Source: Clostridia bacterium (lineage in GTDB: Bacteria; Bacillota; Clostridia; Christensenellales; CAG-1252). From it: a DNA stretch of 40,707 nucleotides. Made by a program: the position numbers and the translations under genes. Below, in pieces: positions 2,545 to 18,389 of the stretch. The DNA lies in NCBI GenBank assembly GCA_017463565.1, contig JAFTOZ010000033.1:1-40707 (forward strand), read 5' to 3'. The notes under the pieces were generated by a model. The model had not been told where the DNA came from. It saw only the letters and a list, made by a program, of their open reading frames with translations, and did not search any database. Every line of letters begins with the position of its first letter. The stretch's first letter is position 1.

Positions 2545-3722
2545 GCTTCTAACTCCTTTTTGATGGCGTCTACCCGATCGGTGCGCTCCCACGGCAAACA
2601 ACTCTTGCCAAAGTGGCCGTAGTTGGTGGTGGCGCTATAGATGGGATTGGTAAGACCCAATTGGTCGATGATGGCGGCAGGACGCAGATCGAAAACCTTT
2701 TTGATGATTTGCTCGATGACGTAGTCCTTTTTGATGCCTGTGCCAAAGGTATTGACACGCAAACTGACGGGATGCGCACGGCCAATGGCGTAGCTGACCT
2801 CCAGTTGGCAACGCTCGGCAAGCCCTGCTGCGACTACGTTTTTGCAGACGTAGCGTGCGTAGTAGGCCGCAGAACGGTCTACCTTGCTGGGGTCCTTGCC
2901 CGAAAATGCACCGCCACCGTGGGGGCAGTAGCCACCGTAGGTATCTACGATGATTTTGCGGCCGGTCAAGCCGCTGTCGCCGTTGGGACCGCCGATGACG
3001 AATCGACCCGTGGGGTTGACGTAGACAACGGTAGCCTCGTCCTGCATAAGAGAGGCTGGAATAGCCTCACAGATGACGTGCTCGATGATATCCTTGCGGA
3101 TTTGCTCTTGGGTGACGCTTTCGTCGTGTTGGGTGCTGACGACGATGGTATGCACGCGCACAGGCGTATAGCCGTCGTATTCCACCGTGACTTGGCTCTT
3201 GCCGTCGGGACGCAGATAGGGCAGTAGGCCGCTCTTGCGTACCTCGGTGAGGCGGCGGGTCAGACGGTGCGCCAGCGTGATGGGCAACGGCATCAGCTCC
3301 TCGGTTTCGTTGCAGGCATATCCGTACATCATGCCTTGGTCGCCGGCGCCTTGTCGGTCGTAGTCGCTGTCGCTGGTGAGGGATTCACCTGCGCGGTCTA
3401 CACCCATGGCTATGTCTGCCGATTGCTCGTGCAGGCGGTTGATGAAGGTAAGGGTATGGCCGTTGAAGCCCAATCCCTCGCGGTCGTAGCCTATGGCGCA
3501 AACGGTGTCGCGCACGATCTTTTCGACGTCAATGCTGTTGCCTTCTGCGCGCGTTTCGCCGAGCACCATCACCATATCGGTGGTAGCACAGGTTTCACAA
3601 GCGCAATGGGCATGCCGATCTTGGGTCAGCAGGGCATCCAATACGGCGTCCGAAATGGTATCGCACACCTTGTCGGGATGACCCTCGGTCACACTCTCGC
3701 TAGTTATTAATCTGTAGTTCAT
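2535..3722 (-). CDS. metK: S-adenosylmethionine synthetase
   Basis: Forms S-adenosylmethionine from ATP and methionine in the cytoplasm, feeding the many methyltransferases of the cell (in this window RsmG and TrmL). The 395-residue length is normal for MetK. The N-terminus runs into [12 protein letters not shown], the ATP-binding [12 protein letters not shown] lies near residue 125, and the phosphate-binding [19 protein letters not shown] near 270. CAGGAG stands just before the ATG. It follows rpoC after a 61-base gap containing a perfect 12-bp palindrome. Because there is no clear promoter in that gap, read-through from rpoC is the simplest source of transcript. Confidence 0.97.
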
Positions 3723-3740
3723 AGTTTCTCCTGTTGAGGA

Positions 3741-3768
3741 ACCGCCCGTACTGCCCAGTACGGGCGGT
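3741..3768 (-). other. Perfect 12-bp stem-loop between rpoC and metK
   Basis: ACCGCCCGTACT (3741-3752) and AGTACGGGCGGT (3757-3768) pair perfectly around a four-base loop. On the minus strand it is followed by TTCCTCAAC rather than a T-run, so it is not a standard intrinsic terminator. It ends only about 18 bases before the metK ATG, close to its ribosome site. It may be an mRNA-processing or stability hairpin, or a partial attenuator. Confidence 0.7.
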
Positions 3769-3783
3769 CAATCGTTTGTTGAA

Positions 3784-6700
3784 TTATTCTTCGTCGTCGA
3801 TGTCGGGGATTTCGATTTCTGCCTCTTGGATATTGCTGACAGGCATAGCGGTGATGTTGCTATACTGCTTCAAACCGGTACCGGCAGGAATGAGCTTACC
3901 CAGAATGACGTTCTCTTTCAGACCAAGCAGGGGGTCAACCTTGCCCTTGATAGCGGCATCGGTCAAAACGCGCGTGGTCTCTTGGAAGCTGGCTGCTGCA
4001 AGGAAGCTGTCGCTTGCCAGAGAAGCCTTGGTGATACCGAGCAGGCAACGCTTTGCGATAGCGGGCTCGCCACCGGCCTCTACGGTCTGCATATTGATCT
4101 CTTCGAAGCGAGCAATGTCTACCAGCTCGCCGGGCAACAGACGGGTGTCACCGGGCTTTTCGATGCGAACCTTGCGCAACATTTGACGAATGATGATCTC
4201 GATATGCTTGTCGTTGATGGCAACACCGGAAGATTGGTATGCCTTCTTGACTTCCCAAGTGAGGTAGTCTTGCACGCCCTTTGCAGACTTGGTACGCAAC
4301 AGATCTTGCAGATTGATGGAACCTGCGGTCAACTGGGTACCAGGCTCTACGATTTGGCCGTCCTCTACCAAAATCTTGGCGTTGTAGGCAGGATTGTAGG
4401 TCTTGGAATCGCCACCGCCAATAGGCTCGACGGTGATGACGGTGCGCTTGTCCTTTTCGGTGCGGGTAACCTTACCTGCGATATCCGAAATGATGGCTTG
4501 CGCCTTGGGATTGCGGCACTCGAACAGCTCTTCGACACGGGGCAAACCTGCGGTGATATCGTCTGCACCTGCAACACCACCCGTGTGGAAGGTACGCATG
4601 GTCAACTGAGTACCGGGCTCGCCGATGGATTGCGCTGCGATGGTACCAACTGCCTCACCGATTTTGACCAACTTGCCGTTGCTCATATCGGCGCCGTAGC
4701 ACTTGGCGCAGATGCCGTATGCACGCTTACAAGCAAGCACGGAACGGATACGCACCTTCTTGATGCCTGCGTCCTCGATCGCTTTGGCTTGGGCGACGGA
4801 AATCATGGTGTCGGCCTCGACCAGCACTTCGCCGGTGGTGGGGTCTACGATGTCTGCCACCGAGTAGCGGCCTACCAGACGTTCTCTGAGATGCTCGATG
4901 ACTTGGTCACGGCTACCGTAGATGGTTTCCACCTCGGTACCCTTGCGATCGCCACAGTCTTCTTCACGAATGATGATGGGTTGCGCAACGTCTACCAGAC
5001 GGCGGGTGAGGTAACCGGATTCTGCGGTCTTCAGTGCGGTATCTGCCAAACCTTTACGGCCACCGTGCGAGGAAATGAAGTATTCCAGAGCGGAAAGGCC
5101 TTCGCGGAAGTTGCTCTTTACGGGCAGCTCGATAACCTTACCGGTAGGATCTTTCATCAGACCACGCATACCGGACAGCTGACGGATCTGATCCATACTG
5201 CCACGGGCACCGGAGTGTTGCATCATCTTGATGGGGTTGAAGGTATCCAGACAATCCTTCAGGGCGGAAGACACACGGTCGGTGACGTCGTTCCACACTT
5301 CCACCACCTTGCGCTCACGCTCTTCGTTGGTGATGAATCCACGGTCGTAGAGACGTTGGATCTTGGCAACCTCGCGGTCTGCATCGGCGATGATTTGTTG
5401 CTTCTCGGCGGGTATGTGCATATCGAATACGCAGGTGGTCAGACCACTCAACGTGGAATACTTGTAGCCCAACGCCTTGATGCGATCCAATACGGCGGCA
5501 GTCTCGGTGTTGCCCTTGGCCTTGTAGCACTTGTCTACCAACTCTTTGAGCTTGCCCTTGGTCATCAGGCAGGAAACTTCCAGATCCAACTGTTGATCGA
5601 CGGTGTCACGGGGAACAAAGCCGATATCCTGGGGAATAGCCTCGTTGAAGATGAGGCGGCCAACGGTGGTTTGGATAAACTTGCCGTGAACCTTGCCGTC
5701 AATCTCCTTGCTGACCCACACGCGAATGGGGTTCTGCAAACCGATGTTCTTGGTTTGATATGCCATCTTGGCCTCGGCAACCGACATAAAGCTGCGGTTG
5801 GTGCGGCGCTTGTAGTCCAGATCGCTCTCGTCCTCGCCTTGGGGGTCGAAGGGACGCTCGATGGTGAGGTAGTAGCTACCCAAAATCATATCCTGCGTGG
5901 GGCTGACGATGGGTTGACCGTCCGACAGTTTGAGAATGTTGTTGGTGGACAACATAAGGAAACGTGCCTCGGCTTGTGCCTCGATGGAGAGGGGTACGTG
6001 TACTGCCATTTGGTCACCGTCGAAGTCGGCGTTGAATGCGGTACAAGCAAGGGGGTGCAACTTGAGCGCACGACCCTCGACCAACACGGGCTCGAAGGCT
6101 TGGATACCCAAGCGGTGCAGGGTAGGAGCACGGTTCAACAGAACGGGATGGTCCTTGATGACGTCGTCCAATACGTCCCACACCTCGGCACGGGCGCGCT
6201 CCACGTAACGCTTGGCGTTGCGGATATTGTTGCAGATATTGCGCTCTACCAACTCCTTCATAATGAAGGGCTTGAACAGCTCCAGCGCCATCTCCTTGGG
6301 CAGACCGCATTGGTACATTTTGAGTTCGGGACCGACAACGATAACCGAACGGCCACTGTAGTCTACACGCTTACCCAACAGGTTTTGGCGGAAACGGCCT
6401 TGCTTACCGCGCAACATAGCGGTCAAACTCTTGAGCTCACGCGATTTGCCGCTGGTGGACTTGGCACGCTTGGTGTTGTCGATGAGGTTGTCTACTGCAA
6501 CCTGCAACATACGCTTTTCGTTGCGAATCATAGCGTCTACACCGCCCGATTGCAAGAAGTTCTTCAGACGGTTGTTACGTCCGATTACGTAGCGGTAGAG
6601 GTCGTTGAGATCGCTGGTAGCGTAGCGGCCACCCTCGAGAGGAATCATGGGACGCAACTCGGGAGGAAGCACGGGCAGAGCCTCGAGAATCATCCACTCG

Positions 6701-17272: not shown

Positions 17273-17518
17273 ATGATTTATCATACGAAAGGCGTGTGCT
17301 CGCGCTCGATGGAAGTTGAGATCGACGAGCAAGGCATCATCACAAAGGCCGTGATTAACGGCGGTTGCCCCGGCAATACCACCGGTTTGGCAAAGTTGGC
17401 CGTGGGTCGCAAGGCAGAGGATATTATTGCTCTTTGCGACGGTATCCGCTGTGGCGGTAGGCCCACCTCCTGCCCCGACCAGTTGGCGCAGGCACTCAAG
17501 CAAGCCTTGGCAAAATAG
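17273..17518 (+). CDS. TSCPD-domain protein (TIGR03905 family)
   Basis: The 81-residue protein contains the TSCPD domain, best known from the C-terminus of some B12-dependent ribonucleotide reductases and here standing alone, as in the TIGR03905 family. Five cysteines are visible: C9, C32 (NGGCPGN), C55, C60 (IRCGGR) and C67 (TSCPD). The cysteines suggest metal or redox chemistry, but the function is not established. It has its own promoter and ribosome site. Its normal downstream region is occupied by the inverted-repeat element. If the outer arms of that element are its former terminator, the insertion has separated them. Confidence 0.88.
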   Translation: MIYHTKGVCSRSMEVEIDEQGIITKAVINGGCPGNTTGLAKLAVGRKAEDIIALCDGIRCGGRPTSCPDQLAQALKQALAK

Positions 17519-17613
17519 TTTTGGCAAAGAAAAAGCCGCTCCGAAAGGATTGTACTCTTAAGGACAGTTTTTGGAATACATTACCTACCGACAGAAAAAG
17601 CAGAAACCGCAGA

Positions 17614-17641
17614 TTGATTTTCTGCGGTTTTGTATTATAAT
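17614..17641 (+). promoter_or_regulatory. Candidate promoter of the cargo gene
   Basis: TTGATT (17614-17619) lies in the loop of the left hairpin. TATAAT (17636-17641) stands 16 bases downstream. Between it and the gene TTTATTTGT (near 17662) and ACAAATAAA (near 17701) form an inverted repeat that could be an operator or leader stem. Confidence 0.5.
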
Positions 17642-17732
17642 AGGGATAGGGACTAAACTTGATTTATTTGTTAATCAAAAGTGAAATTTGAATGAATCAG
17701 ACAAATAAACAAGAATTTGAAAAGGAAATAAT

Positions 17733-18098
17733 ATGGAACAAAAATATCAGATTGGTAATGAATATGGATCTATAATGTGGGACATCGAAAAGCTCCTCAA
17801 AGATATTGAAAAGTTTAGAATAAAAGCATTTGATGTTAAGCATCTCGTTCTCAGCAATCCGTTTCACGGAAATGAAGAATATGCTATGACCACCGAAATT
17901 ACTCAGCCTCTAATTATTGTCAATCTAACAGAAAATATAGACAAGCTAATTGATGGCAACCATAGATTACAAAAGGCATTGAAACTTGGTGTAGCAACGA
18001 TCGATGCTTATTATCTGTCGTTTGAAGAACATCGCAACTACATTATTGATTTTCACGAGGATATATATCACCATATAGTAAGTCATTGGAAAAATTAA
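17733..18098 (+). CDS. Small ParB/sulfiredoxin-like protein carried by the element
   Basis: This 121-residue product contains PLIIVNLTENIDKLIDGNHR followed by LQKALKLGVATIDAYYLS. The stretch resembles the nucleotide-binding core of the ParB N-terminal/sulfiredoxin fold, where a GxHR-type motif (here DGNHRL) forms the active or CTP-binding site. The DNA-binding helix-turn-helix of true ParB is missing, so this is not a partition protein in the usual sense. AAAGGAAA precedes the ATG at good spacing. Base composition is far more AT-rich than any neighbour, pointing to transfer. The family assignment is by motif only; I infer a stand-alone ParB-like enzyme or regulator with unknown target. Confidence 0.7.
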   Translation: MEQKYQIGNEYGSIMWDIEKLLKDIEKFRIKAFDVKHLVLSNPFHGNEEYAMTTEITQPLIIVNLTENIDKLIDGNHRLQKALKLGVATIDAYYLSFEEHRNYIIDFHEDIYHHIVSHWKN

Positions 18099-18226
18099 AT
18101 TCTAATTTGTCGAGAAATAAGGGAACGCTCATAGATAAAAGCCTCCCTTGTATAAAGGGATCCTTTTTTGTTCATCTATGCCTCGTCAATTTTCCTGACA
18201 AGCACTGCATTTGTGTCCACAAAGGC

Positions 18227-18265
18227 AAAATACGGCATACCTCTTTTGAGATATGCCGTATTTTT
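18227..18265 (+). terminator. Terminator-like hairpin at the right end of the element
   Basis: AAAATACGGCATA (18227-18239) pairs with TATGCCGTATTTT (18252-18264), followed by a T and then the right inverted repeat. Its stem is symmetrical in A and T runs, so it can work in both directions. A weaker hairpin, CCTCCCTTgtatAAAGGG with a following T-run, lies near 18144-18169. The 280 bases from 18099 to 18378 hold no other gene. Confidence 0.7.
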
Positions 18266-18320
18266 GAAAACTGTCCTTTAGAGTGACGCTCTAATGGGGC
18301 GGCTTTTTTGTTTTGTTTCA

Positions 18321-18389
18321 GACTAATCGGCTGTTTTAGGATTAGTCGACTGTTTTGAGATGAGTCGGTTGTTTGGGATTAGTCGTCGG
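18321..18389. repeat. Imperfect 19-bp tandem repeat across the MFS stop codon
   Basis: Units begin near 18322, 18341, 18360 and 18378. The core words are TAATCGGCTGTTTT, TAGTCGACTGTTTT, GAGTCGGTTGTTT and TAGTCGTCGG, spaced 19, 19 and 18 bases. The MFS stop codon (18379-18381) lies in the last partial unit, so the array replaces the expected terminator region. Confidence 0.75.

Follow-up and report, generated by a model that had tools for sequence, protein, structure and literature searches.

A putatively mobile one-gene cassette with serine recombinase-like ends in the terminator of a TSCPD gene of a Clostridia bacterium

A one-gene element behind the TSCPD gene

The window analyzed here, i.e., the whole 40,707-nucleotide stretch represented by contig JAFTOZ010000033.1 of the Clostridia bacterium assembly GCA_017463565.1, carries a TSCPD-domain gene (positions 17273 to 17518, from the ORF list) the terminator of which is the insertion target of a compact cassette of 747 bp plus a 2-bp core (ca. 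0.75 kb). This cassette is a real one-gene element, whose mobility we infer from sequence comparison. Features are on the forward strand except for the left and right hairpins, to which no strand is assigned.

Two pairs of inverted arms delimit the region, an inner one at 17554 to 17571 and 18267 to 18284 (18 nt, 94% complementary) and an outer one at 17530 to 17542 and 18296 to 18308 (13 nt, 92% complementary). A previous sequence-only reading had interpreted them as the two-part inverted ends of the element. Both pairs are indeed present in the sequence, but the outer arms are host terminator and vary between copies. The true element ends are the inner arms, spanning 17546 to 17571 and 18267 to 18292, and the boundary is a directly repeated AA dinucleotide (17544 to 17545 on the left, 18293 to 18294 on the right), which other copies likewise show as a 2-bp direct repeat and which is further supported on the left by a filled/empty site pair (see below). 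The 11-bp gaps between the arms are accounted for by the remainder of the element's own ends, the repeat, and the terminator loop. The outer arms, in turn, represent one half each of the TSCPD terminator, which the insertion has split: the left arm AAAAAGCCGCTCCG (17530 to 17543) pairs with the right arm and T-tract TGGGGCGGCTTTTTT (18295 to 18309), and when the site is rejoined, its fold is AAAAAGCCGCUCC-GAAU-GGGGCGGCUUUUUU (−20.6 kcal/mol). Their host origin follows from the fact that the flanks differ in every copy yet pair with each other, and from the undisturbed terminator, AAAAAAGCCGAC-TATTT-GTCGGCTTTTT, that follows the TSCPD ortholog in a genome of the same genus (G004). The suggestion that the outer arms mimic a terminator is hence discarded, as they are the target terminator itself.

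Inward from the left boundary, the 26-bp end AGGATTGTACTCTTAAGGACAGTTTT (17546 to 17571), a putative attachment half-site conserved at all copies and an inverted repeat of 18267 to 18292, is followed by the sub-terminal motif TTACCTACCGACAG (17581 to 17594), which most copies share despite carrying different cargo, and by a hairpin terminator (17600 to 17633; −17.2 kcal/mol, z −5.2) also present in many other copies. A sigma-70-like cargo promoter, TTGATT-16-TATAAT (17614 to 17641; 10 of 12 consensus positions), overlaps this hairpin, an arrangement shared by a second copy in the same genome. The sole ORF, of 121 aa (17733 to 18098), precedes a cargo terminator hairpin (18137 to 18169; −10.9 kcal/mol, z −3.5), a conserved sub-terminal segment CTGACAAGCACTGCATTTGTGTCCACAAAGGCA (18195 to 18226) also found in copies with other cargo, a bidirectional hairpin terminator consisting of A-tract, stem, and T-tract (18227 to 18264; −20.8 kcal/mol, z −6.7), and the right end AAAACTGTCCTTTAGAGTGACGCTCT (18267 to 18292), likewise a conserved putative half-site and one that in other genomes adjoins large serine recombinase (LSR) genes. 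Altogether there are four terminator-like sites compared to 0.4 expected from shuffled sequence, and an Rfam search returned no significant family within the element. The cassette encodes no transposase. The original description of a single small gene with its own promoter and a hairpin at each side was therefore correct in these respects, and the layout also supports the proposal that the inner hairpins may insulate the gene, the left one probably blocking transcripts that enter from the host gene upstream. The stretch from the element to the neighboring MFS gene contains, at 18316 to 18385, TTTCAGACTAATCGGCTGT as a 19-bp tandem repeat of three imperfect copies plus a partial fourth.

The cargo gene carries an IDGNHR motif and is weakly ParB-N-like according to profile matches. 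Its designation as ParB-like stands as a weak similarity to PHROG ParB-like models (E value 5e-4), with no Pfam family scoring over its cut-off. No match to the gene was obtained in a phage search or with PADLOC; for one other cassette's cargo, the latter gave weak ThsA matches. A copy was found within an element at an unrelated locus in G246, a genome from another family, with 106 of 121 residues (88%) and 334 of 363 nucleotides (92%) identical and a left end 95% identical to that of the window cassette. The gene is absent from the same-genus genomes searched and is thus not a conserved resident of the TSCPD locus. Homologs 59 to 64% identical also occur outside elements, and such genes therefore seem to be recruited as cargo.

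Recurrence of the ends, cargo exchange, and target preference

The second copy in this genome, identified with a 74-nt left-end query, lies on contig C101. This copy encodes a different protein, of 136 aa, and has the left end, hairpin-promoter block, and right inner segment of the window cassette (82% identity in the right end region) but has lost the right tip. An order-level search gave matches in 10 of 396 genomes, and a contig scan with the end-tip 17-mer AAACTGTCCTTTAGAGT matched at least 117 genome stretches; of the matches listed, nearly all belong to Clostridia and Oscillospiraceae MAGs from the ruminant hindgut. The end pattern was detected in 22 of 24 genomes, most of which had been reached from end-bearing loci, with up to 12 matches each; the backward control pattern gave zero. 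The copy set, gathered via one exact 17-mer, is biased to intact ends and comes mostly from MAGs. With the ends recurring at more than 100 loci, the prediction of a non-autonomous cargo element with shared ends and varied cargo is upheld.

Complete copies span 0.35 to about 2.9 kb and typically carry unrelated single genes, or none, as in three copies of about 350 to 390 bp with no convincing gene. The cargo includes methyltransferase, NUDIX, S51 peptidase, DUF4932, Exo_endo_phos, HNH, AbiU2-like HEPN, ADP-ribosyltransferase-like, SHOCT/DUF4429, DUF6591, DUF4304, and ParB-like proteins, as well as lipoproteins and unknowns. The APH-like, CAAX protease, and kinase genes next to one-ended copies may be either cargo or neighbors. 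The same cargo recurs at unrelated loci, for instance in the pairs window/G246, L062/L134, and L060/L128. Three cassettes (L047, L051, and L061) encode a small protein that is rich in Cys and contains the motif CLGNGEQGFECCCDECDYYLLCFPEF. Two further copies from different MAGs (L113 and L125) share their cargo and an identical right flank and have different left flanks, as a result of rearrangement, tandem insertion, or misassembly.

Outside the conserved ends the sequence is unique to each copy, but within any one copy the left flank pairs with the right. Among 44 reliable two-ended copies, the best stem centered on the insertion had a median score of 12 and reached at least 8 in 38; shuffled arm pairs did so in 8.6% of cases, and random AA/AT/TT sites from the contigs carrying these copies in 1.1%. 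The combination of A-tract and T-tract occurred in 41 of the 44 copies (1.1% of random sites), with a median spacing of 22. Rejoined flanks folded into strong terminators, at −22.8 kcal/mol for G246 and −21.5 kcal/mol for L128. These data substantiate the targeting of terminators, which had been suggested from the window alone. Six of the 44 copies, including L106, lacked a good hairpin centered on the core, which is why the spacing of the tracts, rather than the hairpin, may be the feature recognized. In one pair of orthologous spacers from two species (L094 and L156), the insertions differ, one being cargo-less and about 330 bp and the other 715 bp, and so do the stems; this looks like repeated use of one spacer.

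The core dinucleotide and serine recombinases beside the same end

Sequence conservation begins 10 nt outside an ACTCT motif on both sides, and in 31 of 35 copies, compared to 14.8 expected, the two outermost conserved positions have the pattern of a 2-bp direct repeat; some of the nonconforming rows, including that of the window, are offset by small indexing shifts. One subfamily has AA as its repeat, the other mostly AT. Read along the element, and with three copies (L047, L059, and L093) turned because their hairpin side showed them to be misoriented, AA was observed 25 times and TT never. Duplication of a palindromic target should give both orientations; such a bias is instead predicted for serine recombination, in which the core dinucleotide is shared. 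The search for an empty site that had been recommended yielded a single usable pair in an all-against-all comparison of joined flanks. In L106 (positions 3545 to 5250, reverse strand), a tRNA-linked spacer is duplicated, with one copy filled by a cassette and the other empty. The filled site reads ...GTGGTT/AGGG...CCAT/TTTGG, and the empty one ...GTGGTTTGG, from which a 2-bp duplication of TT (AA on the other strand) is deduced. The core lies off-center here, and the short piece that was folded gave a weak hairpin.

Serine recombinases (PF00239) were found in 13 of 22 host genomes, and at 2 of the 30 LSR loci read the cassette end adjoins the LSR gene (G077, contig C82; G401, contig C75). In both, the cassette right end and its hairpin come directly after the LSR stop codon, the hairpin lying between gene and end, and are flanked by AA and a terminator arm. 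The left ends of these two elements were not found on their contigs. The best relative, an LSR 64% identical in G177, also has the end 3′ of the gene, and here the other end could be located upstream of the LSR gene, defining a complete element of about 4.9 kb: AAAAACAGCCTGCG-AA-TGCTAAGTGTTCTGAAGGACAT ... CTGTCCTTTAGAACACCGTTCT-AA-AGCAGGCTGTTTTTT. Rejoining its flanks gives a perfect terminator with a GAAA loop. The G177 ends fit the cassette consensus in part (10 of 14 positions in the left core). Besides its LSR, the element codes for TnpV, sigma-70-like, and HTH proteins; that of G077 additionally encodes ParB and relaxase. All three LSRs possess Resolvase, Recombinase, zinc-ribbon (Zn_ribbon_recom), and DUF4368 domains, and those of G077 and G401 cluster together (support, 97/95). 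A complete element with a putative mobilizing enzyme, for which the sequence-only reading had advised a search, exists in G177, the only complete autonomous element found, but the enzyme is an LSR; the evidence points to a DUF4368 LSR and not to the IS/MITE transposase that had been implied.

No serine recombinase above threshold was present in the window's own assembly (93.5% complete), and IMG/VR contained no relatives of the LSR. The best relative in a plasmid search (61%) was from Enterococcus faecalis pGTC3, where the ends do not match. Located 3′ of sister LSR genes (54 to 57% identical) in L269 and L271 is another possible end in common, CTTCCTTATGCG, which suggests parallel families with other ends.

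Proposed mobilization in trans, known systems, and rival explanations

The window cassette is very probably a non-autonomous one-gene element whose ends would be the half-sites of the attachment site of a multi-targeting, DUF4368-type LSR. The LSR of the sister elements presumably acts on the cassettes in trans, and the cassettes would still be mobile. According to this model, an LSR from the larger elements would excise the cassette as a circle with a nearly palindromic junction (right half-site, AA, left half-site; half-sites of 24 to 26 bp) and would join it to an intrinsic terminator with A- and T-tracts about 22 bp apart, at an AA within the loop or close to it. The host terminator would be split by the insertion, and the left hairpin, about 55 bp inside the element, would replace termination for the upstream gene; the right hairpin could act in both directions, and the cargo has its own terminator. 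With a cassette hairpin near each end, termination would be preserved for the cargo and for the host genes on both sides.

One rival is a classical cargo MITE, or mobile insertion cassette (MIC), moved by a DDE transposase, e.g., of the IS30 family. MICs likewise have short ends around passenger genes and no transposase. MIC231-type cassettes carry IS231/IS4-family ends and are moved by a DDE transposase, and the IS30 family generates 2- to 3-bp duplications and prefers palindromic targets; the 26-bp inverted ends, the 2-bp direct repeat, and the palindromic targets found here would all fit. However, an AA duplication of fixed orientation (25 to 0) is unexpected if derived from the target, the IS30-type HTH_38 domain occurs in just 6 of 22 host genomes and at none of these loci with similar ends, which led us to reject an IS30-type transposase as the mobilizer, and no transposase family was seen beside the ends (63 ORFs scanned, best 25 of 81 Pfam families). 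The ends match instead those of a serine recombinase element, the same end adjoining LSR genes, so that movement by a DDE enzyme is improbable.

The cassettes might also be immobile remnants, that is, LSR integrative elements that were internally deleted and kept both ends, like decayed CIMEs, which retain both attachment ends and have lost the integration and transfer genes (PMC5704250). The window cassette has just this composition, with attL and attR kept and the integration and transfer genes lost, and some copies are damaged, e.g., that on C101. But CIMEs are described as lying in tandem at specific sites, whereas no tandem partner adjoins the window copy and the cassettes are one-gene units at many scattered terminators with recurrent cargo turnover. 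The finding of the same cargo and ends at different terminators in different families (e.g., the pairs above) and of up to 12 end matches in a genome makes decay an unlikely account. Of negligible probability is a regulatory or insulator structure that was inherited vertically behind the TSCPD gene, with inverted repeats arising by chance: its location exactly in the intergenic terminator would agree with this, but it is refuted by the recurrence of the ends, and the same-genus ortholog has a plain terminator and no such cargo gene was found in the same-genus genomes searched.

Multi-targeting LSRs with DUF4368 are already described (TndX/TnpX-like; Cp36, Pc01, and Enc9), and the reported Cp36 target (A-rich arm, AA core, T-rich arm) has the layout of the cassette target found here; the terms transcriptional terminator and hairpin do not occur in that report (PMC10083194). 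As in DUF4368 LSR elements, the window cassette has two inverted half-sites around a shared 2-bp core, but the LSR is encoded by relatives with the same end (G077, G401, and G177). Tn4451/Tn4453-type IMEs and IME_Rho_tet, the latter defined in Roseburia hominis with an ORF and not a terminator as its reported site, have the LSR near the 3′ end and inverted ends of about 21 bp (PMC5704250, PMC12904643), and Tn4451 integrates with low specificity (PMC5704250). The TnpV gene in the G177 element and the relaxase in that of G077 recall this group, the members of which, unlike the window cassette, are larger and encode recombinase and relaxase. The cassette thus appears to work like an LSR element, as a non-autonomous derivative and not itself an IME. 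Integron gene cassettes are also one-gene and exchangeable, but the present copies do not form tandem arrays, have two inverted ends instead of a single attC, and possess their own promoter and terminators; the integron reading was set aside on account of the isolated copies with two inverted ends. A literature search, with most subscription journals outside its coverage, retrieved no paper linking LSR targets to terminators and no description of one-gene LSR cassettes.

We rate as evenly balanced the probability that a clade of multi-targeting LSRs naturally lands in intrinsic terminators and runs a cassette economy in gut Clostridia. If so, single genes with their own promoter and replacement terminators would be traded between species with little harm to neighbors, and the A-rich, AA, T-rich motif of Cp36 would be a terminator motif. 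Published descriptions of multi-targeting LSR targets speak of an A/T-rich sequence preference; terminators would give the motif targeted by these enzymes, which are used in genome engineering, a biological meaning that can be tested. Entering a terminator hairpin and supplying replacement terminators would amount to a safe-harbor rule for mobile elements whose host genomes are compact, and the single-gene cassettes, apparently LSR dependent, would constitute a route for orphan and defense-like genes among uncultured gut Clostridia.

As a separate observation, eight copies (L034, L035, L045, L055, L069, L103, L134, and L146) harbor in their right part another element, nested within the terminator that belongs to the cassette itself. 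This second element is bounded by GGGAGGTGGCACGCG..GGAGGGATTGT / ACAATCCCTC..AAGGGAGCC, usually carries a DUF559 gene, and is likewise located at a terminator hairpin.
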